Shown here: piece by piece, positions 3,075 to 60,638 of the stretch
Layout of the letters: each line of letters opens with the position of its first letter
How positions within the stretch are numbered: the first letter of the stretch is position 1
Notes under the pieces: generated by a model
Databases searched by the model: none
Told to the model about the DNA's origin: nothing
What the model saw: only the letters and a program-made list of their open reading frames with translations
From: a virus
Virus record (IMG/VR): IMGVR_UViG_3300034106_005441
Location: 1 to 64,000 of that record
Length of the DNA: 64,000 nt
Reading direction: 5' to 3' (one strand)
Program-made: the position numbers and the translations under genes

Positions 3075-3884
3075 TTAAAAGTTGTGTTTGTATCTGGCGT
3101 CGATCATTGTTTGAATTTTAGCCGCACGTTGACTCACCGCACCCGGAGTAATATTGAGCCTGCGTGCTATGTCTTGTGTAGACGCTTTACGGCGACCATT
3201 TCTCCCTAGCGTCATGTCCATAATCAGTCTATCTGTTGGCGACAAGTCGCCGTATACAAATTCCATCCACGCGTCGGTGTGTTTTGTGTAGTTCGGGAGT
3301 GTGCTGCCGATGTCTGTGTTTGCGGCGTCGTCACTACCCGCAGATTGCAGCGCTGTCATACCCTCAGCTACAGGTTGATTAAAGCCGCGTATTTTTTTTA
3401 TCCGGCGTGTAGACAGCCCGATAGCGTCAGCAATTTCATCGTCTGTGGGGTCGCGGCTCAGTGCGTCCCGAAGCTCATTCTCCGCCGCCGACAGTCTTTG
3501 AAAGTCTAGCCCCACCTGCTCTGGTAGCGAGATAATGTTTTGTTCTTTAGCGGACAGCCGACGTAAACTCTGCAACTGCGAAAGTAAATGTGTTTTTACG
3601 TTTCCTCTATTCGGGTCGTATGTCTGTAGCGCTTTCAGCGCCATAAGGCGCGCTTTGTTTTTAATGGTCGGGCTGGCGTTGGAGCCGGCGTAGCTATTTA
3701 CAGCTGTGTCTACGATTGGCTGAATAGCGCCAATCAGTTTTGTGTTGAGTTCTGGTGTTTTTTGTTTTTGCCACTGCGGGTACAGCGTGTCAAAATCCGG
3801 CGACGCGCCGTACGTCGTCTGGCCAGAAAAAGGTGGTTGCACGTCGCCGAGTATGGATGGCATTCCGTTTTTAGCTGCGCACAT
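3075..3884 (-). CDS. Sigma-70 family RNA polymerase sigma factor
   Basis: 269 residues. Residues 55-120 resemble a reduced region 2, with RLMALKALQTYDPNRGN matching the family pattern of helix then TYDP-r-G. Residues 130-170 (LRDALSRDPTDDEIADAIGL then RIKKI) are a region-3 helix-turn-helix. Residues 210-265 (DLSPTDRLIMDM, TQDIARRLNITPGAVSQR) are region 4, which in this family contacts the -35 element and the beta flap. The N-terminus is short and region 1.1 is absent. ATG 3884 is preceded by AGGTGA. It lies inside the baseplate operon, far from the polymerase genes at 39-46 kb. I infer that it directs late transcription, by the phage polymerase or the host core. Confidence 0.85.
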   Translation of the reverse strand: MCAAKNGMPSILGDVQPPFSGQTTYGASPDFDTLYPQWQKQKTPELNTKLIGAIQPIVDTAVNSYAGSNASPTIKNKARLMALKALQTYDPNRGNVKTHLLSQLQSLRRLSAKEQNIISLPEQVGLDFQRLSAAENELRDALSRDPTDDEIADAIGLSTRRIKKIRGFNQPVAEGMTALQSAGSDDAANTDIGSTLPNYTKHTDAWMEFVYGDLSPTDRLIMDMTLGRNGRRKASTQDIARRLNITPGAVSQRAAKIQTMIDARYKHNF

Positions 3885-17020: not shown

Positions 17021-20000
17021 TCAAACGACCAAGTGCAGTTCGATGTTGTTGAGCGGCGCCGGAACAACAAGGTCGAGCACGATTTCAATACGATCCCGTA
17101 ACAGCGGGTGTACTTGAAGCTTACGAACCTCGCCCGAGATTAACTGCGAGCCGAGTTCTTCTGTGTAACCGTTGTTAGACAAGAACTTGATAATCGTCTC
17201 CACTTCGAACTTCAGGCGACGCAGCATACCCGGCTGAACGTTGGTGCGGCCGATGAACGGGCGCAGGCGTCGCAGGAACAGGTACGACATCGAGTCCACA
17301 TTGCGGCGGATCATCTCTTCCCGGCGGTTCAGGTCGAGGTTGTCCGTCGTCAGGGCGTGGCGGGTGTGCGGTGTGCCGTCGCGGTCTTCCGTGACGATCC
17401 ACACGCCGGCTTCTGCCATGCGGTTCAATTGCGTCTCATTGAAATACTTGTAGGACCGCGTGAAGTCGTCGAAACCGGCAACTTCAACGTTCGTCAGCGG
17501 CTGGTGAGGCACCACACCGGAGACAAGACCCGCAAGCGCAGACGCAAGATAGTAACCCGGCTGCGTGATGCCCGCTTCGCCGATCTGATCGGGCCACACC
17601 GCGCACACGCGACGGTTCGAAAGCGAACCGGCTTGCTGCGCGAGGTCTTCCGCGATCTCGTTACGGTTGCGGTTATGCCAGATTTCAAACCGTTGCGGAA
17701 CTGTCACGACCGCGTCGGCGCCCGTGTACAGAAGCAGCGAGTTCTCGGACAGCACCTGATCAACAACGTACTCCTCGTACTGCTCCTCGCCGAACTGATC
17801 GACGGAGAAGTTGTAACGAACGATATCGCCGGGGCGCACGTCGTTCGTGATGAAGTAACCACTGGCGAAGTTCGTACCAGTCGGCACCTGCAGCAGAGTG
17901 AACTGGCTGCCCGTGGCGTTAGGGTCGTCCTTCAACGTGGCCAGCATCTCGTCTTCCATGACGTTGCCAAGCACGCCGCCGATCAGGGCATTTTGACCGA
18001 CAACAAGCTGCTTCGGCTCGGCCTTGAGCGAGAAGAAACCTGCCTTCCAGTTGTTAGCGATCTCGTTCGACTCGCCGCCGATGTGCGCAGCCCAGAGGTT
18101 CTGCACAAGCCGGTCGTAAGTCAGCGGGATCAGGTTATACATGTCGTCGCGACCCTTGATACGCTCAAGGACCTGCACCCAGCTATCGAGGTCGGGGCCA
18201 GTGACGCGGTAGTTCTCCGGGTGATACTCAACCGGGTGAGCCACAGCGGTGTACTTCACGACCGTACCGTTGCTGTTCGAGAGGGCCTTGTAGACGCCCC
18301 ATTTCAGCGGGTTATCGGGGTGAAGCTGACCGGCGATATCGTCGAGGTCGGCCACGTCGCTGATCGAGTTAACCTCGTCAGCCAGTTCGGCCAAGAACTC
18401 GCGATACTCCGAGTAAACCTTGCCCTTCTCGATGGGCAGCGGCTGCTCAGCGCCGGCCGAAGTCCACTCGGGGTGGTAAGCCGTGATGCCCTCTTGGATG
18501 CAGACCTGCGTATCCTCGAACCAGAAGTTCGTAAGCTGGTTCGCTTCGGGCCTAACGCGCGAGATTTCAATGTTGTCTTTGATGAACAACTTGAGGTCGA
18601 GCGGAACGTAACGTTCCGTGTTGGCCGCATCGTCGCGCTGAAAATTAATCGGCGTAGTTCCGACGAGCACTGAGCCGGAGTTGGTCAGAACCCAACCCGA
18701 GGCTGCATATGTGTCACCAGCAGTTACGCCGTAGTAAATGTTTTTAACAAGCTCTTGCGTGGTGTCGGAGTCCGCGGCGCGAGTCCACGCACCCACAACA
18801 GCCGGTGTGCCGGCTGCAACGGGAACAACGTAAACACCGTTCTGTGTTTTATCAGTCTGATTGACACAGAGCACGCGGTTACCAGAGACAAGCGTCACGC
18901 CGTCGATGGTCTGAAGACCGGACAGTGTGGTTTGCTCGTCAGCAACAACGCGAACAGGCGTCTTCACCGTCGCAGCGCGGACGTAGGTGTCACGCATCTC
19001 AGACGGCAGGTCATCACGGAGGATGAGCTTACGGACCGGACCAGCCTTGCTGGACACCACCGCCACGTAGAACTTATCGCCCTTACGGAGCTTGGCGTCG
19101 ATGAACGCCTGCGCCGCCGCGCCGGTGCCGCCACCGCCAGTGAACGTCACGGACGGCGGATTGAAGTAACCGCTACCAGCGTTCGTGACGGTGATGCTGT
19201 TTACCGAGCTACCGCTGAGCGTGCAGGTCGCCGTAGCTTGAACGCCGGTCGGATCGTCGGGAGCACTGAGCACGACAGTCGGGGGAGCCGAGTAAGTACT
19301 GCCGCCGTTGTCGAGGTCGATCGACTCGACCTTGCCCGGAGCCTTGATAACAACCTTCACGCCGTTCGTGCCGATACCGACCTCACCGCCGTTCTCGACC
19401 ACTTCAGTCGGACCGGAGAAGTCGAGGCCCTTCACCGTGCGGACAGTGATCTCGGGGAAGCCGACGAGGTCGCCGTCCTCCACCCCATCAAACGTACCGC
19501 CCTTGGTGACTTCGACGATGTAAACGTCGTTCTTGGCGCCGTTGTAAGCACCGGCAATGTCGCCGTCGGGCTGAACTTCAAACAGGCCGTCAGCGGCCGA
19601 GTCGACTTCCGTGGCGTTGAACTCTTGACGAACGTTGACAACCCACTTCTGGCCGGTCACAAAGTTGTCATAAACAACCTCGTTGGCGGCAGCAGACTCA
19701 AGGCAGCCTTCAACGTCGGTGATGTTAAATTTTACTTTCAGGCCACGCGTGCCGATGTTCGTCCACTCGTTGAAATCAGCCGGTTGAACTTCTTCGACAT
19801 TGTCGCGGCTCGACGCCGAGCGAACACGCAGACGAGCCGCGTTGCAGCCCGAAATCGTGCTCTTGATGACTTGGATCGTGTACTCTTCTTCAATGTCGCC
19901 GCTTTGGATGCCGCTGTAGTCGGAACCGTCTACTTCGATCATTTTGACGCAGTTAACCTTACCGGCAACCTGCAAGTAGTTATTTTCATCATCCGGCTCA

Positions 20001-20578
20001 TCGACGAAGTAAGTCGTGTTGGGCGCGTTGTCGTCGTCAGCCTCAGCCGGCTTGATCAGCGACGGCACGAGGTCCGATGCGAAACCAACTACTTCCGTCC
20101 ACAGTTCGACTTCGAGGCAATCACCTTCTTGGTCGACAACGGTGCGCAGGTAAACTACGTCGCCGGCTTTTACGTCGCGGTCGAGGAAGTCGCTGCTGCG
20201 GGGATAAGCAGATGTGTTGGACTTGAAGGAAAGGTCGTCCGACTGAATCCAGTTAAATTTGCCCTCCACCGTAGTGATGCGGGTGTAAGTGCTCTGGAGG
20301 TCGTGCTCAAAATACTTGAGCAGCGCGTCGTCCATGTAAACCTTCGCGTAGGCGAGGTCGACGATCGAGCCCGGCTTCCGCTGCGGCCAGCCGTAGCACA
20401 CGTCGTTAAGACGGTCATACTGACCGAGAAGAATCGTCTTCTTCTCGTCGCGGTCGCTATAGCGGTGAAGAATGGCGTGCGGGCCGGCGATGTGGGCGCG
20501 AAGCGGTTCCGTGATCTCCGTGGGAACGATACGGAACTCTTGGAAGACTAAGACTTGTGGTTTTACGTAACTAGACAT
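17021..20578 (-). CDS. Contractile tail sheath protein with inserted domains
   Basis: 1185 residues, much longer than typical sheath proteins (about 400-700). The C-terminal 400 residues carry the sheath core (MIRRNVDSMSYLFLRRLRPF, RRLKFEVETIIKFLSNNGY, and the last strand NNIELHLVV). The N-terminus begins MSSYVKPQVLVFQEFRIVP, also sheath-like. Residues about 415-495 hold two GSGYxxPPxV-type repeats, and about 540-655 a module (IDGVTLVSGNRVLCVNQTDK, NGVYVV, WTRAADSD) seen in phage tail fibres. These are probably surface-displayed insertions. A TATACT box and strong ribosome site precede the gene. Confidence 0.9.
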   Translation of the reverse strand: MSSYVKPQVLVFQEFRIVPTEITEPLRAHIAGPHAILHRYSDRDEKKTILLGQYDRLNDVCYGWPQRKPGSIVDLAYAKVYMDDALLKYFEHDLQSTYTRITTVEGKFNWIQSDDLSFKSNTSAYPRSSDFLDRDVKAGDVVYLRTVVDQEGDCLEVELWTEVVGFASDLVPSLIKPAEADDDNAPNTTYFVDEPDDENNYLQVAGKVNCVKMIEVDGSDYSGIQSGDIEEEYTIQVIKSTISGCNAARLRVRSASSRDNVEEVQPADFNEWTNIGTRGLKVKFNITDVEGCLESAAANEVVYDNFVTGQKWVVNVRQEFNATEVDSAADGLFEVQPDGDIAGAYNGAKNDVYIVEVTKGGTFDGVEDGDLVGFPEITVRTVKGLDFSGPTEVVENGGEVGIGTNGVKVVIKAPGKVESIDLDNGGSTYSAPPTVVLSAPDDPTGVQATATCTLSGSSVNSITVTNAGSGYFNPPSVTFTGGGGTGAAAQAFIDAKLRKGDKFYVAVVSSKAGPVRKLILRDDLPSEMRDTYVRAATVKTPVRVVADEQTTLSGLQTIDGVTLVSGNRVLCVNQTDKTQNGVYVVPVAAGTPAVVGAWTRAADSDTTQELVKNIYYGVTAGDTYAASGWVLTNSGSVLVGTTPINFQRDDAANTERYVPLDLKLFIKDNIEISRVRPEANQLTNFWFEDTQVCIQEGITAYHPEWTSAGAEQPLPIEKGKVYSEYREFLAELADEVNSISDVADLDDIAGQLHPDNPLKWGVYKALSNSNGTVVKYTAVAHPVEYHPENYRVTGPDLDSWVQVLERIKGRDDMYNLIPLTYDRLVQNLWAAHIGGESNEIANNWKAGFFSLKAEPKQLVVGQNALIGGVLGNVMEDEMLATLKDDPNATGSQFTLLQVPTGTNFASGYFITNDVRPGDIVRYNFSVDQFGEEQYEEYVVDQVLSENSLLLYTGADAVVTVPQRFEIWHNRNRNEIAEDLAQQAGSLSNRRVCAVWPDQIGEAGITQPGYYLASALAGLVSGVVPHQPLTNVEVAGFDDFTRSYKYFNETQLNRMAEAGVWIVTEDRDGTPHTRHALTTDNLDLNRREEMIRRNVDSMSYLFLRRLRPFIGRTNVQPGMLRRLKFEVETIIKFLSNNGYTEELGSQLISGEVRKLQVHPLLRDRIEIVLDLVVPAPLNNIELHLVV

Positions 20579-36437: not shown

Positions 36438-39161
36438 TTAAACGTTAGCGGAGGGTCCGAGATCGACGTCGCCCGACGACTCTTCCGGGTACGGCTCAAT
36501 AGTCTTTTGCTTCAGGAATAGAATCACGTCGCCAAGCATTTCAAACGCATTGCGCAGCGAGTCTTCCAATTCCGGCATGTCAGCTTTGCCGTAGCGGTCG
36601 GCGAACCGGTCGCCGTGCCAGTAGAACATAAACAAGATACGGCCCAGCTTGTCGAGGCCCTTGGTAAGCTCGCCCATGTAACGATCTACGAGGCCGTCGT
36701 CGCGCACGGCGCGCAACATGGTGCCGATCATGGCGGTATCAAACACTTCACGCTGGCCGCTTTGCGCCGCCTGCATGACCTGTTGTACGGCGCCCTGATC
36801 CAGTTCCGTGTTGGGGTTGTACACACTGCGATCTGTCTGGCTGGCTGACATGCCGGGCACCGGCACGCCGACATCAATGCCAAGCTGCGTCGGAACGCTC
36901 GTGCCCATGATGCTCTCGCCGCCCATTACCGGACCCGGATCGGCCGGGGCTGTGGGCGCGTTCTGAATCATCATCGGCGAGCCATACGGGTTCGCATACT
37001 TAACGTGGCAGGCGAATTTTCGCTTAGCCCGAGCCCGCGAAAGAATTTCGCGGGCATTTTTTTCGCGCAAGCCGTGCCGGGCTACCAGCGACACAAGGGC
37101 TTCCTTCTCAGAAAGTTCTTTCTCGATCGATTGCTTTTTGGGGCTGTGAATCTCGACCGCGGTGCCGTTGTGATACACAGTCAGGCTCGACAGTTTTTGC
37201 ATCATTACAAGCTGGGCGTCAGCAAGATTGCCCGGCATCAGCGGCGGGTTATCGCTCTCGCCGCAGCCGCAGGTGCTCTGCCCGTCAAGTTCGCCGTCAT
37301 CTTCACCGGGCGCGCACTTGAGCAGCTTGAAGCCTTCGGGAATAAAGATGTCGCCCATGCTGGAACGAATCGACCGGCCGCCCTTGGCGTTTAAATGAAC
37401 CCGCACGCCGTCACGGTACTTGTCGTAATTCAGCGGGTCGGTGTAGCAGCATGGCGAGATCGAACCCTTGGGCGGGAACTTAGAGTGGTCTTCCATGTGG
37501 ACTTCGTAGGCGTTACCGGCAAACTCCGTCTCGCCATATTCGCGGATCACACGAAACGGCACTGTCGAGTCGCCCGATTTGCTGATCGCCATGTAGCGCC
37601 CGCTCTTGGACACGCTGTTGGCGTCCGAAAGACCGTTAAACCACGAATCAAACTCGTCACCCTCGACGCGCGCAAAACAGAACACATGGTCGGCGCGGGT
37701 GTTAATCCACTCCGGCTTGCCTTCGGTGCGCACGACGGTCACGAAATCAGAACGCTTGGCCGGACCCTGCGGATACACGGCGATGTAGCACTTCTCGATC
37801 TCGCCCGGCTTGACCAGCACCATGTACAGGCCGCTCTGGGTCGGATTAAACAACTTCTGCTCGACCTGAATTTGATAGGGGACGGAAACATTGTCCCGGT
37901 CGCGCTTGTCGGTGATCAACACGCCGTCGCGCAGAAGCTTCTCTTGATCTTCTTCGGTATAGCCGGGCGGTAAAGCTGTTTGAACTGTGGCGTCGTAAGT
38001 CACAACCTTCAGCGTCGACTCGGCTTTCGGGGTTTCTGGTGCCTCTGACAAGACACTGGCGATTTTGACTTGATTCTGGCGCGCCGTGGCGGTGGCGATG
38101 GCTTCTTTAATGATGTCTAAGCCGTGAAACTCGTCGATAGCTTTGGCCATCTGCGGGGCGTATTGGCACGTCTGCACCAATTTAGCGATAGTCTGCAGCC
38201 CAGCTTGTTTAAGAAACTCGCGGAGGTTGAGCTTGTGACCGAGTTCTTCAAAAGCCAGCTTGGTGTTCATCGTGGCAGTTTTAGCCAATGCTGGCATCAC
38301 CGCTGTCATCATTTCTTTTAATGTCGGGTCAGCCGCCGCAATCTTTTTTTGCTGGGCCGCGTGAGCCGCGAGCATTTTTCGAGTTTGCTCTTGTTCTTTT
38401 CGTGCGCCGGCGATGTATTGCTGCAGAATTTTGTGTTTTTGAGCTTGAGAGAGCGGCACACGCAGATCAGCGGTGTAACCCTCGTTTTCATCACCAGCGT
38501 ATTGGATATTTTTCAGTAAATCTGGTTCTAGACCATGCGCAAACCACGGCAACGTTTTGGGGCCGTATTTGTACTTATTGCTGCCAGAATACAGTTCCAA
38601 ATTTTCACCAGAATGATCCAACGTTTGGCCGCCAACCTCATACGCGTTTTTCTCGTACATTGTCGGGCGCGCGGAACCGAACTTAGCCGGGCTGCGCGAA
38701 AGCTGTGTGAAGTCAGGCTGCCGCTGGCCGAACTGCGTGAGATTTTTATCAATACCGGCGCCAAGAATGCTGGGCTTGCGATTAATGAGGTAGTTGACCC
38801 AGTTCTCTTTGAGCGGGACGAACATATCCTGATTCTTGATATACAGGAGTTCGTGGCCCTTGAGGTCGCCGTTCAAGAAGAAAACCGGGGCATATAACCA
38901 CATGGAGCCGACTTTAAACGCAAAGACTCCAACAGCTTTGGTGTTCTCACGGTTACGGTCGAGAAGCTGGAAGCCAATCTCATGGTCCATCAGTTTCGGG
39001 GCAGAATCCCGAAGGTAGGCGTGGGCCAGATTAGAAAAAGCCTGTTCAAACGCCACGTCGTCACCGCGGCCACCAATCTCGGCGGTTTTAGTACGGTCAT
39101 GCGACCGGACGACGTTTAACCAGTGCTTCCACGAAGCTTCTTTGGACTTTTTATTAAACAC
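36438..39161 (-). CDS. Large conserved-looking virion-block protein, 907 residues
   Basis: GTG start at 39161 with GGAGGT 7 bases upstream. Residues 75-125 contain GVFAFKVGSMWLYAPVFFLN and ELLYIKNQDMFVPLKENWVN, a segment I believe recurs in large phages, without known role. A Cys pair/cluster (STCGCGESDNPP) lies near residue 625, and the C-terminal 150 residues are helical, Met/Gly/Pro-rich then ELEDSLRNAFEMLGDVILFL. It directly follows the beta' C-terminal gene. Candidates are a portal-type or internal head protein or an RNA polymerase partner; I cannot decide. Confidence 0.6.
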   Translation of the reverse strand: MFNKKSKEASWKHWLNVVRSHDRTKTAEIGGRGDDVAFEQAFSNLAHAYLRDSAPKLMDHEIGFQLLDRNRENTKAVGVFAFKVGSMWLYAPVFFLNGDLKGHELLYIKNQDMFVPLKENWVNYLINRKPSILGAGIDKNLTQFGQRQPDFTQLSRSPAKFGSARPTMYEKNAYEVGGQTLDHSGENLELYSGSNKYKYGPKTLPWFAHGLEPDLLKNIQYAGDENEGYTADLRVPLSQAQKHKILQQYIAGARKEQEQTRKMLAAHAAQQKKIAAADPTLKEMMTAVMPALAKTATMNTKLAFEELGHKLNLREFLKQAGLQTIAKLVQTCQYAPQMAKAIDEFHGLDIIKEAIATATARQNQVKIASVLSEAPETPKAESTLKVVTYDATVQTALPPGYTEEDQEKLLRDGVLITDKRDRDNVSVPYQIQVEQKLFNPTQSGLYMVLVKPGEIEKCYIAVYPQGPAKRSDFVTVVRTEGKPEWINTRADHVFCFARVEGDEFDSWFNGLSDANSVSKSGRYMAISKSGDSTVPFRVIREYGETEFAGNAYEVHMEDHSKFPPKGSISPCCYTDPLNYDKYRDGVRVHLNAKGGRSIRSSMGDIFIPEGFKLLKCAPGEDDGELDGQSTCGCGESDNPPLMPGNLADAQLVMMQKLSSLTVYHNGTAVEIHSPKKQSIEKELSEKEALVSLVARHGLREKNAREILSRARAKRKFACHVKYANPYGSPMMIQNAPTAPADPGPVMGGESIMGTSVPTQLGIDVGVPVPGMSASQTDRSVYNPNTELDQGAVQQVMQAAQSGQREVFDTAMIGTMLRAVRDDGLVDRYMGELTKGLDKLGRILFMFYWHGDRFADRYGKADMPELEDSLRNAFEMLGDVILFLKQKTIEPYPEESSGDVDLGPSANV

Positions 39162-39207: not shown

Positions 39208-41160
39208 TTACAGTGTTTTTGGCGGTGAGCCTAGTGGGACTTGCGGGGTACTTGCGGGGTACTTGGGGGGTACTTGGGGTGTCGGCTCTGGTTTCCAGCC
39301 GCTCGTCGCGCCCGAAAGACCGAACTGCTCGCCGCGCGCTAAAGCCGGCACGTAACTGCTGCCCGCCGCGTCACTGGCTCGCCCACGATGCACGCTATCT
39401 AAGAAACCGCGCTCCTGATACGAGCCCAACATGCGTGTCATCCAATCGGGGTCGTTAGAAATATTGGCCATGCCGCGCACCATCTCAGACTCAAACGGCG
39501 GCGGTTCTTTATGCGCTTGAATGTTGTTAATGCCATACTTCTTGAGGTTATCAGCGACGCTCTTGGTAATCTTGGTGCCAATCGAGTAGTGCAGTGCCGG
39601 TTCTTCCAGATAATGATTTGAGAGCGTGGCTGGATTACCCGCAATGGCGCCGTCTCTCGGCCGCCACGAGCGCTCTAGCATTGAATACGGCACCACGTCG
39701 TCTGGGGCGTAGTCGCCGTACTCGTCGTTCATGCGCACATGGTTAATAAGCCCGCGCGCGACCAGTTCAATGTTTCGACGATGCGAGGTGATGCCAGAGT
39801 TCTTCAAAACGTCGCGCATGGCGGAGACGAAATAGCGGCGTCCTTCGCCGACGCCTTTGTGTCGCACTATCTCGGCGGGATTAGGCATGCCGTCTGAGAG
39901 CACGTCGCCGGCCTCCAGCGGGTCGCCCTTTTTTACAGAGACTACTCGGTCGGCGGGGACGTAGTGCTCCTCGCCGTCCACGACGACGTACGAGCCGCCT
40001 TGGGCCGCTGGGCGGATTTCCTGCACGCGGCCTTCACGCTGGGCGTGCGTGGCGCCGTCAGGATATTTCTTTGGCACTTGCACCAGTGCGTTAATAGCCT
40101 TAAAGCCGCCGATAGACTTTGCACCGCCGACACCGCCGGAGTGCTTGGACGAAAGCTGAGACTGCGAGACTGGCTCGGACAACGCCTGCGCGGCTGCAAC
40201 GCCGACGTAATCACCCACCGGCGGCAAACGACCCTTTTCCCGATAGCCGACATCGCGGGCGTATACGCCGCCGTCTTCGGGGCCGCCGACAGTCGGGCTG
40301 CGCACTAAAATATCTTTAATCCCCATTTCTTTGAGGTCTTTAAGAATCTTGGGGGTGAGCAACGTGTTGCGCTTATACTGGCCAATCGGGCGGGCAAGAA
40401 ACGCGCCCTCGTTATCTGGGTCGTCGACGTCCGAAGGCATGCCGCGGTTATGGGCCGTAGCGATGCGCTCCTCGTCGTCATCGTCATCAGCGGTCACAAG
40501 CAGACGATGCGCCATCTGCGTCAACTGCTTGCCGTAAAAGCCCGCGTCGGCCGTGGCTGTCTTAACGTCAATCACACCCTTGCGCGTCCCGAAGCTGGCG
40601 GCGAAGTATTCCGCCGGCGTTAAACCGCGGCCGTACGAGCGCAACACCGGCAGCGGTATCGGCTCGTCTTTGTGGTCAACGTACTGCATGTCGGCGCCGA
40701 TAAGCGAGTTCAGCGTAAACTTGTTGCCACTACCGCCGCCTAACACCTGATGCACCAACGGGTTGTTATTTTCTAGCGCCTCGTTGTACACGTCTTCGAC
40801 GAGTTTTTTTTGCGTGTCAGCGGCGAGTTGCAGAATTTTTAACTGCCGCTCTTTTTCCGACGTGCCGGGCGTCGCCATGATGCCGCGCAGCTTTTTACGT
40901 ACTTCTAATTCCGCACGCCGACTGGCGAACGTCGGCTTGATGTCTTTTAGCCCCATCGACAGGCCGCCCGTCGAGTACGCCACGTCGCGAGAGACGTCAT
41001 GAATCTTCTTCATGACTTCGCGGTATTTATCGGGGTGGCGCTTTGCTAGATCAGTGGCCAGCGCGCCCATATTCTTCTTGTCGAGCACGCGGTCGTAGTT
41101 CCGCATGTCTTCCGGCAACGCTTCGTTGATGAGTAACTGGCCTAACGTTGTTTTTAACAC
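39208..41160 (-). CDS. RNA polymerase beta' subunit, C-terminal half (RpoC2-like)
   Basis: 650 residues, GTG start at 41160, 9 bases after the preceding stop. Residues 178-223 (GRGLTPAEYFAASFGTRKGV, ATADAGFYGKQLTQMAHRLL) align with the bridge-helix-adjacent and trigger-loop region of bacterial beta'. Residues 315-345 (DYVGVAAAQALSEPVSQSQL then SSKHSGG) align with the IGVIAAQSIGEPGTQLT region. The trigger loop folds over the incoming NTP at the catalytic centre. Large lineage insertions of bacterial beta' are absent. The end is Pro-rich and encoded by four 11-base tandem repeats. With the fused beta-beta'N protein it would complete the core. Confidence 0.9.
   Translation of the reverse strand: MLKTTLGQLLINEALPEDMRNYDRVLDKKNMGALATDLAKRHPDKYREVMKKIHDVSRDVAYSTGGLSMGLKDIKPTFASRRAELEVRKKLRGIMATPGTSEKERQLKILQLAADTQKKLVEDVYNEALENNNPLVHQVLGGGSGNKFTLNSLIGADMQYVDHKDEPIPLPVLRSYGRGLTPAEYFAASFGTRKGVIDVKTATADAGFYGKQLTQMAHRLLVTADDDDDEERIATAHNRGMPSDVDDPDNEGAFLARPIGQYKRNTLLTPKILKDLKEMGIKDILVRSPTVGGPEDGGVYARDVGYREKGRLPPVGDYVGVAAAQALSEPVSQSQLSSKHSGGVGGAKSIGGFKAINALVQVPKKYPDGATHAQREGRVQEIRPAAQGGSYVVVDGEEHYVPADRVVSVKKGDPLEAGDVLSDGMPNPAEIVRHKGVGEGRRYFVSAMRDVLKNSGITSHRRNIELVARGLINHVRMNDEYGDYAPDDVVPYSMLERSWRPRDGAIAGNPATLSNHYLEEPALHYSIGTKITKSVADNLKKYGINNIQAHKEPPPFESEMVRGMANISNDPDWMTRMLGSYQERGFLDSVHRGRASDAAGSSYVPALARGEQFGLSGATSGWKPEPTPQVPPKYPASTPQVPLGSPPKTL
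39236..39279 (-). repeat. 11-base tandem repeat in the 3' end of the beta' C-terminal gene
   Basis: Four consecutive 11-base units (minus strand CCCCAAGTACC, CCCCAAGTACC, CCGCAAGTACC, CCGCAAGTCCC). Because 11 is not a multiple of 3, each unit is read in a new frame, giving PQVPPKYPASTPQVP. Gain or loss of a unit would change the last dozen or so residues. Confidence 0.85.
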
Positions 41161-41169
41161 GGCACTTCA

Positions 41170-41394
41170 TCAGTTTTTAGGCGGTGGCGGCAGTTCGTGC
41201 ACTTTTGGCGCCGGAGTCTCTACCCCCGACATTTTCAGCACAGTCGCAAAATCTTCGTCGCCCACTGCAGAGTACATAATGCCCTCGGCAACGTGGGTGG
41301 CGACAAAAATAGGATTGTGCAGGTCGTCTTCGATAACGACGGTGTGCGCTTTCGCTTCCGCAGGAATTAAATTGTGCTGCGTCTTAACCAGCAT
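41170..41394 (-). CDS. Small protein between polymerase-region genes
   Basis: 74 residues (MLVKTQHNLIPAEAKAHTVV, ending Pro-rich HELPPPPKN). It overlaps the upstream Pro/Ala-rich gene by 11 bases and lies 9 bases before the beta' C-terminal gene. Compact enough for a small polymerase accessory subunit, but no similarity to omega or other known subunits is visible. Confidence 0.55.
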   Translation of the reverse strand: MLVKTQHNLIPAEAKAHTVVIEDDLHNPIFVATHVAEGIMYSAVGDEDFATVLKMSGVETPAPKVHELPPPPKN

Positions 41395-42100
41395 GATTCG
41401 TCAAACTCCGGCAAAGAGCAGCCACGGCGCTTGCTTTCGTTTGAAGGTCCACGTTATCTGGCGATGAGACCGTAGATGTCACGCTCTGATCTACCGGACG
41501 GCCGATCCGGGAGGCGTGCTGGTCGACAGCGTCCCACCAGTTCGCCATCTTGGGTGGGCCGCCGGCTTCCGGAGGCATGCCGCCTGCGGCGGCCGGGTCA
41601 CCACCCGCGCCCTGCTGCGGCGGCGGAGGCGCCATGGGGCCACCGGGAAGCGCAGTTTCAGCCGGCGGGGCGCCAGTTGTGCCGGGCGGAAGCACAAGCG
41701 ATTCCGGCGCAACTTGCACGCCCATGGCGTTCATAATCGCCGTAAGCTGCTGCTGCATGTTGTACAGCCGGTAATCAAGCATCTGCATCATTTGCTCGGG
41801 CTTTAGTTTTTGCCCACCGGCGGCGCCAGCCGCCGGAGGTGGCGCGGGTTGCGCCGGCGGCAATCCGCCCATCATCGACGGGTCTGTCATGCCCGGAGGA
41901 GCCGCGGGCGCCTGCTGTGCGGCCGGATCGCCGGCGGGGGGCGCAGCGCCTGCAGCGGCCTGCATCGGCGTAGCCGGCGGCATGACGCCCATATCATTCG
42001 GCATGGGGGCGGCGGCTGATGGCGGCACAACGGCCGACTTTTCCAGCAAAGACTGGCGGGCCAGCGACAAAAGTTCCGGATTCACAGTATAAGACATCAT
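41384..42100 (-). CDS. Pro/Ala/Gly/Met-rich disordered protein
   Basis: 238 residues with one helical core (LKPEQMMQMLDYRLYNMQQQ, residues about 103-130) flanked by long Pro/Ala/Gly tracts. Start is one of two adjacent ATGs (42100 or 42097) after GGAGG. It lies between the two polymerase genes. The pattern suits an inner-virion or linker protein; similar low-complexity tracts occur in the scaffold-like protein at 30667. Function unknown. Confidence 0.6.
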   Translation of the reverse strand: MMSYTVNPELLSLARQSLLEKSAVVPPSAAAPMPNDMGVMPPATPMQAAAGAAPPAGDPAAQQAPAAPPGMTDPSMMGGLPPAQPAPPPAAGAAGGQKLKPEQMMQMLDYRLYNMQQQLTAIMNAMGVQVAPESLVLPPGTTGAPPAETALPGGPMAPPPPQQGAGGDPAAAGGMPPEAGGPPKMANWWDAVDQHASRIGRPVDQSVTSTVSSPDNVDLQTKASAVAALCRSLTNHAG

Positions 42101-42120
42101 TACCTCCGTGTAATATCAAT

Positions 42121-45100
42121 TCAGGCTTTATCTTCTACGATGTGTACCGGCGTGTCCACGTCAATCTCGCCGCGCCGATATGCCGACAGAGCATCCTTCT
42201 TGCTGCGATAAACCCGCGGCTTCGACCGATTGTTCATTTTACTGGAAGCTAAGTATACACCAGTCTGATAATCCTTGTTCGGTACATAGTGCGCTTTAAA
42301 GTTCGCCGTGGCAAAAAGGTTTTTACTGGGGAGCATCTTTTCGACAGCTTCCTTGGCGGCGTCGTCGGTGCTCGGGACGTGATACTGCATGGCGTCCCCG
42401 TCAAAATCGGCCCCGAAGCCCTTTGTAATAACAGGATTTACTTCCATGACCTTGTTTTTGGTCAGGCGCGGATAAAACGCCATAACCCCGTACCTGTGCA
42501 AGACCGGCGCGCGGTTAATAACAATAGGCTTAGAATTCATTTGCTTGTCGAGTTCGTCAAAAGCTGCCTTGTTTTTGTCCTCTACAGCGCGCAAAGCTTC
42601 CATTCTGGGCAAACCCCGTCGCACGAGGCCACGCACGACAAACGGCTTATAAATCTCCCATGCTTTTTCTTCGGGGAGCGCGACTTCGTCCATGTCCAAG
42701 TCGGGATTCGGGGTAATCACAGCACGGCCCACAAGATCGACGGTGCTGGACAGCAGTTTGCGCTGCATGGTGCCGAACTTAGGGCTGTCCCCGAATATCT
42801 TGGACAGGAAGCCCCGGACATTGCGCTCGACGTTCTTGGGGTGCTGCGGGTCGCCAAGTCCGGTGACGGCTTTCATCGAGTCGTAAAGAGACAGGCGCTC
42901 GTTCCCGTAATCGGCAAATGCGCCAGACGCCTCTTTTAAGACGTTATTGGATTCAAGCAGTTCTTTGTAGAGATAATTGGCGTCATCTACGAGCGGAAGC
43001 TTTTTAGCCCCCATTGTCGAGACAGGCCGGAACGCAGGGGGCAACACGCCGACCTTGGTGAGCATCCAGCTTTCAGGATTTACACCAGTAGCTTCGGCGC
43101 CCTTTAAAAAGCCTAGACGGCGTACGGCGGCATCTCGAATAGTTTTGCGGCCTGATTTGATATCTTCCCGCGCTTGGTCAATAGCCTTCGGAACGTTAAT
43201 GCGCTTCAAAGCATCCTGAATGGCCGCAGGTCCCGTTGAGTCGCCCAGTTTGTCTTGGCCAGCGAGAATGCCACGGAATTGCTTTTCAGTAAGCCCAAGA
43301 ACGCGGCGAATGGGTTCTTCCATAATCGGGTTGGGCATTGGCTCGTGTAACGTGATCTTCGCCCAACGATTGCCGCCATGACCCCCCGTAAGCGTCTCAT
43401 CGAACAAGCCGCCTTTGATGGGCTTGAGATTGCCTTTCCAGTCGACGGTCTCGGCGCTGGTTAATTCACGGTCTCCAGCCAGTTCGTCGATGGACTTGTC
43501 GGTCAGGGCCATGATGTGCGTTTTAGTTCCCGTACGCACTGTATTCACGCCAGAAGCCCGCAGTTGATTTACAAACTTCTCGTAGACGTGCGGAACTTTG
43601 GGGAGCGGCGGGTCGTAGCCAGCCATGAATTGCGTCCAGTATTCAGGGTTGGCTTGGCCGCGTACCATTTTAGAATCGCGTACTACTTTGCCGGCGCCGT
43701 GGGAAAGCAGAGCGCCTAGTTCCAGCATCCCGACTCGCTTGGCGCCTTCAGAGCCACCTTTCGCGGGTGTGCCTTCGGCTGTGTATCCACCGGTAGAGCG
43801 GCCTTGACCTTTAGACTCGGCTGTGTGGTGGAGCTTCATAAAGAACCGATGGCCAGTTAAAATTCCCTTGATCTTCCGGCCAGATTCCGGGTCAGTCAGG
43901 TCTTCGGTATCAGACAGGCCGTTTTTGGCGAGTTCCTGCTGCGCGTACTCTATTAAGTCCCGCTGGTCGTCGAAGTCTTTAATTTTGAATGGCTGGCCGG
44001 TCTTGGCGGCGATTTTGCCCAGTGCCGCCTCAACGATCTGGGCGGGGTTTACACGGTTAATAAGTCCGAGGGGGCTGACAAGTATCTCCATCGGGTTTCC
44101 GTCCTTGTCGGCGGGCATCTGGCCGTCTGGGACGATTTCAGATACCACGCCCTTGTCGCCAAACCTCCCAGTGATCTTGTCGCCCACTTCCATCTGAGAC
44201 TGAGACTTTACAACAACCGAGACGCCCTTCTTGGTGTGCTCAACGTCCGTAACAATTCCGGGCGAATGATGGTCCCACGTAATAGTTTCGTTAGCAAAAG
44301 ACCCGCCACGACCTCGATGGACTTTGCCGTATACCTGATCGCGCTTTTTGGCGACGAGGACGAGCGGGTCACCAAAGTTCACAGTCATGCCCTTCTTGAT
44401 AGCGCCGTTGTCGTCAAAGTTATCTAACAGCTTTTTGTCGTACTCAGAAGGAAACAGCGACATGAAAGCTTTTTTGCCGACGTGAGTGTTATCGTCCCAT
44501 TCGGCTTCGTTCTGATACATGTGCTGGCTGGTGAGTCTTTTGGCGGCAGACTCGGAAATTACTACAGCGTCTTCGTAGTTTCTTCCTCGGAACGGCAGAT
44601 AGCCCACGCGGAGGTTTAATCCCAGCGCAGCAGAGCCGTTCTTGTCCGTAAAGTTCGACGTTGCGAGAAGCTGGCCGGGTTTGACTACGTCGCCGGGCTG
44701 CACCGTAGGCGTCTGCGTCCAAAACGTCTTCCGGTTGAACGGCATGTCGTTATACAAATCAATAACTTGCTTCTGGCCGTTTTGGTCGCGCAGAATAATT
44801 TCGTCAGGAGTAATAGACTCGATTTTGCCGCCGAATTGTGATTTGATGGCGCCCAATTTCTCGCCCATCTCGTCTTCATGCGAGGTGCCCGGCGTGTCCG
44901 CTTTTTCAGACTGCACAAATGGGGCTTCCGCGTTGGCGAGAGGTAGCGCCTGTGTAAACATTCGGCTACCCATGATGACGCGCTGGCCTTTTACCATAGA
45001 CTTCATCGGCACCATATTTGTGAGGGCCGAGAAAGTGCTGTCCATATTGGGAACAGTGTATTGCGCGTCTTTTTTGGGCACGTATTTAATCTTGCCGTTT

Positions 45101-46533
45101 ACTAAAGCCGCGACCATAGGCAGATCAGACTTTTCTTCGCCGGGAAACATCAGCGGCATGTCGGCGAGTTCTTGCGGAGTTTTATACTCAGTCTCGCCAG
45201 TCTGAGAGTTTTTTACGGGCACAACGAAAGTGTGTAAGTTCTGCGCGGATTTACGGGCGCCAGCAGCAAAACGCATATCGACACCCACTTTGCCGCTTTC
45301 AGGCGTGCGCAGATAGTCGATGAAGCCAAAATGACTCGGCTGCACGCTACGAGATTCGGCGGGGACTGCGTCGAGGGACCCAATACCGCCTTCGCCCAGT
45401 CGAGTTACGCGCGTTTGGTGGTCGAAGATTTCCGCAGGGTTGATTTCTTCGAGACTGGAGCCAAGGCCAGACCCGATGAGCGCTGCGGTAATCGACTTGT
45501 TAAACACGCCCGACGGAATGTGATCCAGAGACTTCTTGGCCGTGGCTTTCCAGAGCAATTGGCGCAAGGCTGTCTTGTCCTTGACGAAGCGCTCGGAAAT
45601 TAAATCTTCCGGGCCAAAGACTTGCTGATAAGTCATGCTATCGCGGTCGTCAGAGTCGGCCTCTTTGCGATTTACGGCAATCAGCTTCTTGGTAATATCC
45701 AGAATCGCGTCGGGAGTGAGGTTCTTGTAAGGCTTGCCGAGCGTGCGTTTGGTGACTTCTTCGTCCAACTCTGTCTTGTTAAACTCTGCCGCGATAGCCT
45801 TGATCTTAGCGATCTGGTCTGCGTTGGCGTCTGGTTTGAAAACGAGGCGTTGATAAAGTTTGTCGAGCGTGCCGGCGTCGCCCTTCTGCATGTTAACCGC
45901 AGTGATTTCGTTACCCCAAGTTTCGCGCATTTGCTTGTCAGTCACGCCGAGCGTCTTGAGCAGCGGCATGAGCGGAATCTTAGCCTGCCCGATCTGAATC
46001 TGGAACTCACCAGACTTGGGGTCCATGTAGTACCGGTGAGAGCGACCTTTACCGGGCAGCGTATTAACGTGCGACTCCAGTTCGCCGTTCTCCTTCTCGC
46101 GCGTGAAAACACCCGGGCGCAAACGGAGTTGATGCGCAAGCGTGTACTCAACGCCTTTGTTCACGAATGTGCCGGAGTCCGTAAGGTACGGCACATTGGC
46201 GATCGTGGCTTGACGCGACGCGACGGGCTGCTGCGTCTTGTTATCGATCAGCGTCCAAGTGCCAGTGAGCTTACGCGCCAAAGAGCCGCGCGTGAGCACA
46301 GCTTTCTTCTGGTCTTTGCGGCTGTAGCGGTCGGGGCCGGCGTATCCGACGTTCTGTAACTGCAGAGTGTACAGGTCGTTCTGGATCGGCTCAATGCTCG
46401 ACGCGCTGCGCAACGCTTCGTTAAAGATATTATCGCGCAGAGCGGGCACATCGCCGAATGCGCGAGTTTGCGGCTGCGAAATAGCCGGCGCAGTTAACGG
46501 CGGCAGTGGCGGCGGTGAAAACTGGTCAGGCAT
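42121..46533 (-). CDS. RNA polymerase beta subunit fused to N-terminal half of beta'
   Basis: 1470 residues from ATG 46533 (GAGGTG upstream; TGATG overlap with the preceding stop). Beta motifs: SHFGFIDYLRTPESGKVG (about 400-417, rifampicin-region match), RGRNYEDAVVISE (about 649-661), VGDKITGRFGDKGVVSEI (783-800), RSTGGYTAEGTPAKGG (912-927). After residue about 960 it continues as beta': PPAFRPVSTMG, LVGRAVITPNPDL, INRAPVLHRYGVMAFYP and the catalytic GADFDGDAMQYHVP, with Asp1376, Asp1378 and Asp1380 chelating magnesium. It stops about 90 residues later, where cyanobacterial RpoC1 also ends. No Cys occurs, so the beta' zinc ribbon is lost. Confidence 0.95.
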   Translation of the reverse strand: MPDQFSPPPLPPLTAPAISQPQTRAFGDVPALRDNIFNEALRSASSIEPIQNDLYTLQLQNVGYAGPDRYSRKDQKKAVLTRGSLARKLTGTWTLIDNKTQQPVASRQATIANVPYLTDSGTFVNKGVEYTLAHQLRLRPGVFTREKENGELESHVNTLPGKGRSHRYYMDPKSGEFQIQIGQAKIPLMPLLKTLGVTDKQMRETWGNEITAVNMQKGDAGTLDKLYQRLVFKPDANADQIAKIKAIAAEFNKTELDEEVTKRTLGKPYKNLTPDAILDITKKLIAVNRKEADSDDRDSMTYQQVFGPEDLISERFVKDKTALRQLLWKATAKKSLDHIPSGVFNKSITAALIGSGLGSSLEEINPAEIFDHQTRVTRLGEGGIGSLDAVPAESRSVQPSHFGFIDYLRTPESGKVGVDMRFAAGARKSAQNLHTFVVPVKNSQTGETEYKTPQELADMPLMFPGEEKSDLPMVAALVNGKIKYVPKKDAQYTVPNMDSTFSALTNMVPMKSMVKGQRVIMGSRMFTQALPLANAEAPFVQSEKADTPGTSHEDEMGEKLGAIKSQFGGKIESITPDEIILRDQNGQKQVIDLYNDMPFNRKTFWTQTPTVQPGDVVKPGQLLATSNFTDKNGSAALGLNLRVGYLPFRGRNYEDAVVISESAAKRLTSQHMYQNEAEWDDNTHVGKKAFMSLFPSEYDKKLLDNFDDNGAIKKGMTVNFGDPLVLVAKKRDQVYGKVHRGRGGSFANETITWDHHSPGIVTDVEHTKKGVSVVVKSQSQMEVGDKITGRFGDKGVVSEIVPDGQMPADKDGNPMEILVSPLGLINRVNPAQIVEAALGKIAAKTGQPFKIKDFDDQRDLIEYAQQELAKNGLSDTEDLTDPESGRKIKGILTGHRFFMKLHHTAESKGQGRSTGGYTAEGTPAKGGSEGAKRVGMLELGALLSHGAGKVVRDSKMVRGQANPEYWTQFMAGYDPPLPKVPHVYEKFVNQLRASGVNTVRTGTKTHIMALTDKSIDELAGDRELTSAETVDWKGNLKPIKGGLFDETLTGGHGGNRWAKITLHEPMPNPIMEEPIRRVLGLTEKQFRGILAGQDKLGDSTGPAAIQDALKRINVPKAIDQAREDIKSGRKTIRDAAVRRLGFLKGAEATGVNPESWMLTKVGVLPPAFRPVSTMGAKKLPLVDDANYLYKELLESNNVLKEASGAFADYGNERLSLYDSMKAVTGLGDPQHPKNVERNVRGFLSKIFGDSPKFGTMQRKLLSSTVDLVGRAVITPNPDLDMDEVALPEEKAWEIYKPFVVRGLVRRGLPRMEALRAVEDKNKAAFDELDKQMNSKPIVINRAPVLHRYGVMAFYPRLTKNKVMEVNPVITKGFGADFDGDAMQYHVPSTDDAAKEAVEKMLPSKNLFATANFKAHYVPNKDYQTGVYLASSKMNNRSKPRVYRSKKDALSAYRRGEIDVDTPVHIVEDKA

Positions 46534-47780
46534 CACACACCTCGTGCCGACGCCGGACCAGCCTCATTTGTTAAACGCTTTACTTCCGCCAACTCAGTCG
46601 GATCAATCCACGGCGTGTCCAGCCCCTGCATTCTGCGCCGCGCTTCGCGTGCCTTCTGGAGATTGCGCGCTTCAGACCTAGCCTTCGTCTGATCGTACAT
46701 GTACTTAGCGCCAATGGCCCCGGCGCCGAGTCCGCCAGTCAGCATTAAATTTGTAAACACACTGTTCGTGTCCTTGATGGCGCGGTCGGCGGGTTCGAAT
46801 AGCACGTCGTAGAAGTACTGCGGGACCGTGCGATCTTTCTGTGCAAATGGCGTGATATTTTTAAAGTAATTCTCCCACGTGCGCGCAACAAGGGCCTGTT
46901 TCTCGAACTTCTCTGGTGCGGCCTTATACGCGTCGTACAGCACGTCTAGCTGAGCATCCAACGCGGCCTTCTTTTCTGATTGGTCGTCTTGCTCTTCTTT
47001 TTTCTCTTCCGGCGGTTTGCGACCAGTCAGCGCCTCGAAGTAACTGCGGCGAGCGGCTTCGACCTTTTGCAAATTTTTCTCGTTTTCATTTTGTCGCGCG
47101 GCGGTATCGACAAGTGCCAGTCCGCCCGCAGCGCCAGCGGCGGGAAGAGTTGCGTTCAACACACTGCGCCAAGCGTCGTGACCCGACGATTCAGAATCGT
47201 AGTCGCTTCTACCGGGGCGAAACGGACCTGTAAGTGTGCGCGGCATATTTTCAGACACGTAGTGCCAAAGCGGCCGTGACGTAGCGGCGGCAGTGCCTAA
47301 ACCGCCAACACCGCCGAGCGTTGCTCCTAAAATCGCATTTTGTCGCCGACGGCCCTTCGGCGCTCGGGCGGCGCCGATAAGCGCGCCCGCGCCAGCACCC
47401 AAAGCTGGCGCCATTACAAACATCGGATCGAGTGCGGCGGCTTTGGCGTTGCCGGCCGTCAAGAAAGGCAACGACGGCATCTCAGGTAAAAGAGATTCCT
47501 CTTCGTCTTCCGCTGGCACAGTAACCTCAGAAATCGGCTCGTTCGCGACGGCGACAGGGTCGGGAATAGCTGTGGCTTGACGATACTTATCAGCCAAATA
47601 GCGCGATAGATAATATAAGCCGCCGACGCCAAGACCTGCCAGACCACTATACATAACGCCTTTACGAAATTCGTCGCCAATTCCGGCGTTGTTCTGTCTG
47701 TCATACGCCTCGCTGCGGCCGGGAGGCAATGGTCGCGACGCGCCCCATGTCGACTCAGCCGCTGTTTTATTGATGCTCAT
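46533..47780 (-). CDS. Glycine-zipper hydrophobic protein upstream of RNA polymerase
   Basis: 415 residues with several Gly/Ala-rich hydrophobic segments: VMYSGLAGLGVGGLYYLSRY (about 42-61), APALGAGAGALIGAARAPKG (about 122-141), LGATLGGVGGLGTAAATS (about 148-165) and NLMLTGGLGAGAIGAKYMYD (near 350), separated by charged linkers. This looks like membrane-inserting or pore-forming virion ejection proteins. Stop and start of the polymerase gene overlap (TGATG), so both are made together, which would suit co-packaging. This is inference. Confidence 0.6.
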   Translation of the reverse strand: MSINKTAAESTWGASRPLPPGRSEAYDRQNNAGIGDEFRKGVMYSGLAGLGVGGLYYLSRYLADKYRQATAIPDPVAVANEPISEVTVPAEDEEESLLPEMPSLPFLTAGNAKAAALDPMFVMAPALGAGAGALIGAARAPKGRRRQNAILGATLGGVGGLGTAAATSRPLWHYVSENMPRTLTGPFRPGRSDYDSESSGHDAWRSVLNATLPAAGAAGGLALVDTAARQNENEKNLQKVEAARRSYFEALTGRKPPEEKKEEQDDQSEKKAALDAQLDVLYDAYKAAPEKFEKQALVARTWENYFKNITPFAQKDRTVPQYFYDVLFEPADRAIKDTNSVFTNLMLTGGLGAGAIGAKYMYDQTKARSEARNLQKAREARRRMQGLDTPWIDPTELAEVKRLTNEAGPASARGV

Positions 47781-53016: not shown

Positions 53017-53997
53017 TTACGCGCGGTTAAACATAGCGGGCACGATCGCGTGCATCATGCCGCCCCAGAGTCCCATATCTTGTAGTTTTTCCTGGCCCAA
53101 CGGCGTCAAGCCGGCCATAGCCGATAACGCCCGGCCGGCAATATTAGCTGTCGCCAACCCCACCCCGGCGGACGCAATCCCCCGAATAACATCGACGGGC
53201 CGAATAATCGGCGACCGTTGTGCCGTACTGATGCCCGACATTAAACCCGTTGTCGCGGCGGCGTAGGCCGGCGGTGTGAACTGACTACCACCATTATACA
53301 TTCCGCGCTGGACATCTTGCCATGCGGCCTGATTAAACTGCGGAACAGACACGGTCGGCGCAAACAAATGCTGATTGTTAAACCGATCAAAACCAACTTT
53401 TTCGCCGGGCGCGGTTATAGGTGTGTTGTTTGGCGTAATCCATGATTTCCAAAAACCGATGTCGGGTCGGGTGCGCGACACGCCATAAGCGTTATTAAGC
53501 CCAACTAAACCACCGCCAGCCAGCCCCAGCATGCCAAGATTACGCCGAAGTTTGCCGCGCTCTAAATACCGCTCTGGAAACAGGTTTTCTGCCAGCGCGC
53601 CAGCGCCGTACCCAGCGCCGCCCAGCATCAAGCCGGACACAATCGCGTTGGACAGCGGCGTCGGGCCGCCCAGCATTTTGTGGCCGAAATCAAACGCGTG
53701 ACTAATACCCGAAATAGCGGCTGCTTTGATTAAAATCTCGCGGTTCCAGTCAGGCGCTGTTTTGTGCGACCGTAAAATTACACAGCGGTTATTGTCGACA
53801 GCTAATTTTGACAGCCGCTTCGGATTTGGGCGATAGAGCACCAGCACGTTATCCGCTGTGTCCCATGTCGCCAGCGAACCGGCCAAATCGCCCGTCTGCG
53901 CCGCAATTTTTTCGTACGCTACTCGCAGACGGGTGGCCTGCGGCAGCATTTCCGCCACGACATCGGGTACAGTTTTCCATTCCTGCAGCGTGCTCAT
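53017..53997 (-). CDS. Gly-rich hydrophobic protein, 326 residues
   Basis: Soluble N-terminus (EWKTVPDVVAEMLPQATRLR), then several Gly/Ala hydrophobic segments: ALSNAIVSGLMLGGAGYGAG, LRRNLGMLGLAGGGLVGL, and RGIASAGVGLATANIAGR. ATGA overlap with the 2H/Nudix gene upstream. Resembles the glycine-zipper proteins at 46533 and 48154; possible ejection or membrane-remodelling protein. Confidence 0.6.
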   Translation of the reverse strand: MSTLQEWKTVPDVVAEMLPQATRLRVAYEKIAAQTGDLAGSLATWDTADNVLVLYRPNPKRLSKLAVDNNRCVILRSHKTAPDWNREILIKAAAISGISHAFDFGHKMLGGPTPLSNAIVSGLMLGGAGYGAGALAENLFPERYLERGKLRRNLGMLGLAGGGLVGLNNAYGVSRTRPDIGFWKSWITPNNTPITAPGEKVGFDRFNNQHLFAPTVSVPQFNQAAWQDVQRGMYNGGSQFTPPAYAAATTGLMSGISTAQRSPIIRPVDVIRGIASAGVGLATANIAGRALSAMAGLTPLGQEKLQDMGLWGGMMHAIVPAMFNRA

Positions 53998-60146: not shown

Positions 60147-60638
60147 TCACACCAGCCGCGACTCAGCCGCGCGATACTGGTGCTTGAGCGTGTCGGCGAG
60201 AATGCGCCGCAGCTTTTCACAGTCCTCGTAGCTGTCCTGCAACTGGTCTTCGTAAAAGATTTTGAGGTACGCGGACTCGACCGGCCACGTGCCAGCCAAC
60301 GCATCCAACTGTGCAATGCGCTTAGCGTAGTTGTTCACGACTTCTTCTTCCAGCTGCACCGAATGCCCCAGCGCGTCTTCCACCTTCGTAAACGACGGGA
60401 AATTCTTGCCGCTGGAATTAGGCAGCGCAAAATGCAGGCCGAGCAGGCGGTCCAAAAACGCCTGCACGTGCTCCAACTCGCCCTTGGCCGCGTTCGTGAA
60501 GAACTCTTTATATTCTTCTGCGTGCAAACCAGTGATATAGCTGGCGTGATACAAGTAGAACTGCAGGTGCGTCCACTCATTATGCAAATCTTCGTTCATC
60601 AACTGCAGAAACTGCGGTAGCGTCAATTGCGACATCAT
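60147..60638 (-). CDS. Ferritin-like four-helix protein
   Basis: 163 residues. Helix A has NEDLHNEWTHLQFYLYHASY with Glu21; helix B has GELEHVQAF, an E-x-x-H metal motif (Glu54, His57); helix C has QLEEEVVNNYAKRIAQ; helix D has FYEDQLQDSYEDCEKLRRIL with Glu130 but without the usual following His. The layout is that of bacterioferritin/Dps-like diiron carboxylate proteins. The iron site may be incomplete. Possible roles: iron storage, DNA protection or virion metal content. A ribosome site GGAGG precedes the ATG pair. Confidence 0.7.
   Translation of the reverse strand: MMSQLTLPQFLQLMNEDLHNEWTHLQFYLYHASYITGLHAEEYKEFFTNAAKGELEHVQAFLDRLLGLHFALPNSSGKNFPSFTKVEDALGHSVQLEEEVVNNYAKRIAQLDALAGTWPVESAYLKIFYEDQLQDSYEDCEKLRRILADTLKHQYRAAESRLV

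Follow-up and report, generated by a model that had tools for sequence, protein, structure and literature searches.

Cellular RNA polymerases (RNAPs) in which beta is tethered to beta', as well as others in which beta' is split, are established as functional; the RpoBC proteins of Helicobacter and Wolbachia on the one hand, and the RpoC1-RpoC2 pair of cyanobacteria and plastids on the other, belong to cellular enzymes that possess alpha. Among phages, crAss-like viruses use their RNAP in the virion. The single-chain RNAPs of the crAss-like, YonO and P23-45 types carry both catalytic barrels in one chain, and that of P23-45 likewise serves in the virion (PMC10770324). In the jumbo phages phiKZ and AR9, each phage encodes two RNAPs, whose beta and beta' subunits are each split and mutually unjoined and which lack sigma, and one of the two versions is packaged in virions (PMC7598289, PMC7824862). 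In addition, multi-subunit-RNAP-encoding Caudovirales (mReC) have been delineated, for which inclusion requires, according to the accessible part of that report, the motif NADxDGD as well as matches to beta and to beta' that each span 800 aa or more (PMC7481178). Further marks of the mReC are a major capsid protein of family PF07068 and an RNAP clade set apart from cellular RNAPs.

Here, a further arrangement is characterized in the window, the stretch of 64,000 nucleotides that constitutes positions 1 to 64,000 of the IMG/VR record IMGVR_UViG_3300034106_005441. The elements of its RNAP, with the evidence for each, are the following.

42121..46536, minus strand: fused RNAP gene, beta plus beta' N-half (Pfam and PDB profile matches; same ORF in relatives)
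43537..46536, minus strand: beta part of the fused protein, approximately residues 1-1000 (alignment to bacterial beta)
44149..44184, minus strand: beta active-site motif GDKITGRFGDKG with two lysines (aligned with bacterial beta GDKMAGRHGNKG)
42124..43413, minus strand: beta' N-half, from GGLFDETLTGG (residue 1042) to residue 1471 (Pfam, PDB profile, alignment)
42394..42414, minus strand: beta' metal-binding motif GADFDGD (aligned to bacterial NADFDGD)
39208..41160, minus strand: separate beta' C-half, 650 aa, GTG start (Pfam Rpb1_5, PDB beta', AlphaFold model)
40576..40590, minus strand: bridge-helix motif GTRKG in the C-half (aligned to bacterial GARKG)
40132..40200, minus strand: trigger-loop stretch VAAAQALSEPVSQSQLSSKHSGG (conservation among relatives)

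Both of these minus-strand ORFs are open and intact. The fused protein comprises 1471 aa when counted from the mechanically assigned GTG at 46536 and 1470 aa from the ATG at 46533, and the latter is probably the true start because it overlaps the upstream stop codon as TGATG. In Pfam searches Rpb2_3, Rpb2_6 and Rpb1_2 match this ORF above their curated cut-offs and Rpb1_1 below its own. Profiles built from each protein together with its relatives were compared with solved structures in the PDB, whereby the fused protein retrieved bacterial beta (E 9e-119) and the beta' N-half (8e-72). In the alignment bacterial beta ends opposite residue 1005; the GDK..GDKG motif of beta occupies residues 785-796 and GADFDGD residues 1375-1381. 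The phage beta' N-half is devoid of the N-terminal zinc ribbon of bacterial beta', and the second set of beta' zinc cysteines is absent in the window's group but kept by Salmonella phage Arash and the single-chain relatives described below.

The second ORF matches Rpb1_5 at 3e-22, and its profile retrieves the bacterial beta' C-half at 6e-70. It is not extendable, since a stop lies two sense codons upstream of its GTG. Its AlphaFold model (pLDDT 82) matches Thermus thermophilus beta' along its length with TM 0.72-0.75. The motif VAAAQALSEP..KH spans residues 321-340, and the trigger-loop residues Q333 and H340 are invariant across 27 relatives. Hence, the preliminary description, which had read one protein as beta continuing into beta' through GADFDGD and a second as bearing the trigger-loop region and an IGVIAAQ-like motif, is borne out by Pfam, structure-derived profiles and motif positions alike, with beta, beta' N-half and beta' C-half all recovered. 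The core residues of the bacterial type are all present, namely the catalytic DFDGD, the two beta lysines, the bridge helix and the trigger-loop Gln/His, and by this measure of sequence the RNAP is predicted to be enzymatically active. The structure model of the fused protein, covering residues 272-1471 (1200 residues), is of moderate confidence (pLDDT 70, pTM 0.46); it resembles beta in local structure with a poor global superposition (TM 0.38), and it carries no weight for or against a joint active site beyond what the sequence provides.

Two intact ORFs of this kind might in principle stem from a single gene that an error in sequencing or assembly has interrupted, or be halves that are rejoined by way of an intron, a split intein or a frameshift, and insertions of intein-like and HNH type are indeed known within this RNAP family. 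The distribution of the layout nevertheless renders such an explanation extremely improbable. From a single IMG/VR scan the best 80 relatives were kept and 79 loci newly fetched; the fused gene occurs in the 79, broken by a frame change in one (L109), and the separate C-half is present in every fetched locus whose contig reaches far enough, usually at a distance of 0.9-6 kb. The same layout is found in the finished genomes of cultured phages, namely Salmonella phage Arash, where gp206 (1525 aa) and gp216 (606 aa) are separated by a gap of 4.7 kb that holds opposite-strand genes, and Vibrio phage D69. Vibrio phage D181 combines it with an HNH-like insertion in beta, and Vibrio phage D148, judged by the same hit pattern, is of the D181 type with respect to both layout and insertion. 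Moreover, the gap between the halves holds conserved genes, and no residues are left over where the halves meet, so that there is no room for the parts of a split intein. Since cultured phages and dozens of contigs share the layout, assembly error and rejoining by intron or intein are rejected, in agreement with the preliminary description.

Insertions in individual genes were recorded as well. A large one in L023 (2-5278) looks like an intein in beta, and insertions presumed to be inteins or extra domains extend the fused ORFs of L073, L079, L105, L108, L114 and L115 to 1803-1846 aa and the C-half ORFs of L051, L084, L092, L093, L112 and L113 to 1030-1313 aa. An HNH-type endonuclease gene splits the beta part in L030 (6443-7393) and L121 (11545-12475). 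The insertion site is identical in Vibrio phage D181 and a metagenomic relative, the gene of D69 being intact, and the HNH-type insertion is likely a mobile intron.

The RNAP genes sit among virion genes on the same record. Neighbouring and further genes are the following.

41384..42100, minus strand: Pro/Gly/Met-rich protein of 238 aa, encoded between the RNAP genes (91 fetched loci have homologues)
41170..41394, minus strand: 74-aa ORF between the RNAP genes (ORF listing)
36438..39161, minus strand: 907-aa protein directly downstream of the C-half gene (weak similarity to Arash gp218)
17021..20578, minus strand: virion protein resembling tail sheath or head decoration (PHROG matches)

The gene for the Pro/Gly/Met-rich protein directly follows the fused RNAP gene throughout the clade; its product is perhaps a virion linker or scaffold, and similar-looking proteins also occur in loci L147 and L111. 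The 907-aa protein shares 25% identity over 109 aa with gp218, which the accessible part of the Arash report gives as a virion protein. Elsewhere, the window encodes an actin-like protein (57464-58498; Pfam Volactin, E 3.5e-63) of a family first named in haloarchaea, a 686-aa protein with 2H phosphoesterase and NUDIX domains that also weakly resembles a family of portal proteins (53994-56054), and a ferritin-like protein adjoining a glycosyltransferase (60147-60638 and 60660-61655). The major capsid family of the mReC, PF07068, matched 0 of 16 relatives, but as no positive control matched it either, this is not counted as an absence.

Scans seeded with Arash and with longer relatives placed the two-part enzyme in a wider family, most of which consists of single-chain beta-beta' polymerases of about 2,050-2,200 aa that comprise beta, beta'N and beta'C. 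Among distinct sequences the first survey counted 82 single-chain forms, 72 forms split like that of the window and 3 three-part forms with complete coverage, alongside further three-part loci with partial coverage. The two proteins of the window occupy positions 24-1484 and 1485-2061 of the single-chain profile, tiling it without loss. Across the 75 distinct split forms, of which 72 are two-part and 3 three-part, the end of the fused ORF always falls at profile position 1479-1485. Trees rooted on bacterial RpoB+RpoC were computed with FastTree (125 rows) and with IQ-TREE under LG+C20 (48 rows), and in both all split forms constitute one clade with a support of 100, and a single change accounts for the beta' split. 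The three-part forms fall within the Arash branch of this clade, and the single-chain row L153 is the clade's sister with a support of 96 in IQ-TREE. The arrangement is better explained otherwise than as a one-off combination: a single-chain enzyme underwent one split within beta', and a sub-branch another at the beta/beta' border. In the three-part layout, seen in L122-L132 and L136, beta (~1130 aa), beta'N (~385 aa) and beta'C are all separate, and in some of these loci virion-like or other unrelated genes lie between beta and beta'N. A peculiarity of another kind concerns in-frame TGA codons in otherwise intact single-chain genes, 11 in L396 (3956-10027), 4 in L430 (3923-9901) and single ones in L426 (at 6185) and L238 (at 6071), a pattern in the reading frames which suggests that these phages decode TGA as an amino acid.

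Since beta is separate and beta' unsplit in the bacterial outgroup, the cheapest history is a fusion first, then one cut inside beta' and later a cut at the beta/beta'N border. Branches near the bacterial root are long, and a long branch separates the phage clade from the outgroup of 3 bacterial sequences. The reverse order, with an ancestral split enzyme whose beta'C later became attached to beta-beta'N to give the single chains, gains some room from the rooting: the outgroup attaches to the long branch L188, so that the exact position of the root is uncertain. Yet with an outgroup beta' that is unsplit, fusion followed by splitting takes fewer steps under any rooting of the phage tree, and the position of single-chain L153 next to the split clade points the same way, which makes an ancestral split quite improbable. 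Starting from L188, the deepest single chain, a scan brought up no intermediates in which beta and beta' are separate. Four distant loci with the order beta'-then-beta, obtained with the beta' of Va2, RHph and Carin-5, were considered and rejected as intermediates.

With respect to the partners of the enzyme, no alpha match (RNA_pol_L) passed the cut-off in either of two sets of 13 and 8 records, hence in 0 of 21 long relatives, and the same search was positive in 13 of 14 cellular genomes that served as control. One sub-cut-off alpha-like match with internal stops, in the single-chain L408 record, is read as chance. A phage alpha may be too divergent for Pfam, or host alpha may be used; we infer alpha-free assembly of the phage RNAP. 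The search with PF00940 lacked a positive control and is not counted as an absence. GTDB scans returned nothing or cellular RNAPs only, and hence gave no hint of the host. A candidate specificity factor is encoded in the window as follows.

3075..3884, minus strand: sigma-factor-like protein, 269 aa (PHROG sigma, 2.4e-9)

Matches to it occur in 13 of 13 and 8 of 8 records (21 of 21 long relatives) at 25-70% identity, the weaker of which could in part reflect general sigma homology, and its Arash counterpart is gp10. This protein is likely the promoter-specificity partner of the RNAP and would thereby govern promoter choice. Rpb2_6 gave exactly one match per record in the 13 long relatives; hence, no virion enzyme separate from this RNAP was seen.

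Where the enzyme acts is suggested by Arash. In the accessible part of the mass-spectrometric analysis of its virion, Gp206, with 3516 spectra, exceeds all other proteins; 1210 spectra belong to Gp216 and 467 to the sigma Gp10, and the main text as available makes no mention of the second Arash sigma, gp196 (PMC10585845). The 'coverage' column of that data set, which reads 100% even for two-peptide proteins, was set aside (PMC10585845). The Arash authors also allow for carry-over of the proteins from infected cells (PMC10585845), in which case the same enzyme would be made during infection for middle and late genes. Such a reading draws on that remark and on the fact that virion data come from Arash alone, at 32% identity, the window's phage and its close relatives being known from their genes. 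It is at odds, however, with the presence in gradient-purified Arash particles of more Gp206 spectra than of the major capsid protein, together with the sigma-like protein, with the single RNAP in each of the 13 records, and with the location of the RNAP genes among virion genes. Carry-over is therefore considered rather unlikely, and packaging and injection of the RNAP for early transcription is preferred by analogy with Arash.

Taken together, the locus probably encodes a fused-then-split RNAP, multisubunit in type, of a large tailed phage (contigs of relatives measure about 160-225 kb), alpha-free, sigma-guided and packaged in the virion. As to how it came about, we lean, with more reserve, towards a scheme in which, in a widespread lineage of tailed phages, fusion replaced alpha-dependent assembly and one branch was subsequently re-partitioned from one to two to three chains with its one active site retained, giving an alpha-free virion holoenzyme with co-packaged sigma. 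On the main reading, beta and beta' were fused in an ancestor into one chain of about 2,050 residues, and the fusion could have taken over the role of the alpha dimer in uniting them. One lineage then acquired a single cut within beta', behind the catalytic barrel and ahead of the TT-x-G-R element. Beta-beta'N carries the catalytic aspartates and lysines and beta'C the jaw as well as the bridge helix and the trigger loop, and docking of the latter on the former would yield one ordinary active site of the bacterial type. The phage's own sigma-like protein would pick promoters, and enzyme and sigma, by analogy with Arash packaged in the virion and injected, would transcribe early genes. The family can be aligned to bacterial RNAP by ordinary profiles and yet has no detectable alpha, and its one-, two- and three-chain forms have an inferable order, which makes the replacement of alpha by fusion testable, as well as the tolerance of the core to cuts and the packaging and injection of a sigma-guided RNAP. 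Since Arash is cultured and purifiable, such tests need no metagenomic reconstruction.

Matches labelled 'Staphylococcus/Enterococcus phage ... Kay', Bacteriophage sp. MT836236 and Acinetobacter 'phage' MD-2021a were rejected as two-subunit phage relatives, being cellular rpoB/rpoC with the zinc ribbon and rplA-rplJ-rplL neighbours, and were reserved for outgroup use, if used at all. The phage-labelled records holding such genes are OR844998.1, OR846602.1, MT836236.1 and CAKLQH020000005.1; cellular contamination of this kind can mislead searches for phage RNAPs.

Alignment with Prochlorococcus RpoC1/RpoC2 and Acinetobacter beta' places the phage cut before the strand TT-x-G-R, at about residue 553-570 of beta'. 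TT-x-G-R opens the phage C-half, whereas it closes cyanobacterial RpoC1, whose end lies about 20 phage residues after the phage cut. Hence, the equation of the two cut sites made in the preliminary description holds for the linker, which is nearly the same in cyanobacteria and plastids, but not for the position, which is on the other side of TT-x-G-R. The junction of beta with beta'N follows the same order as in Helicobacter and Wolbachia, as had been stated. Given that the cut differs in position and that all these counterparts are cellular enzymes with alpha, both likenesses are taken as convergent.

With phiKZ and AR9, whose enzymes are alpha-less, the window shares a phage-encoded and probably alpha-free RNAP of the cellular type (PMC7598289, PMC7824862). 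The partition differs, as anticipated, in that beta is joined to beta'N, in contrast to the unjoined split subunits of those phages, and there is one RNAP (one Rpb2_6 match in each of the 13 long relatives) with a sigma-like protein. The mReC, in the part of their description at hand, resemble the window as tailed phages whose RNAP aligns readily with the beta and beta' subunits of bacteria (PMC7481178); the window has GADFDGD instead of NADxDGD and a beta'C of 650 aa, and so falls outside them. The crAss-like, YonO and P23-45 enzymes are very divergent from cellular RNAP (PMC10770324), whereas the window's family matches ordinary bacterial Pfam profiles.

The closest counterparts are Arash and the Vibrio phages D69, D181 and D148, which have the fusion and cut site of the window and a sigma-like protein. 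The suggestion that the combination was undescribed holds for the openly accessible literature, subscription journals and preprints being outside this scope, but the sequences themselves are public (Arash gp206/gp216, D69, IMG/VR relatives); thus the layout was already deposited, and its anatomy and history appear undescribed. In the accessible sections of the Arash report the genes are annotated simply as beta and beta', with mention of neither fusion nor split (PMC10585845). Arash and the window differ in sequence, with about 32% identity for the fused protein and 26% for the C-half, and Arash has the 4.7 kb gap, but in Arash-type phages and the window alike the RNAP gene comes shortly after the portal gene, and by its cut at profile position ~1484 and its membership of the same clade at a support of 100, the RNAP of the window is of the Arash type.
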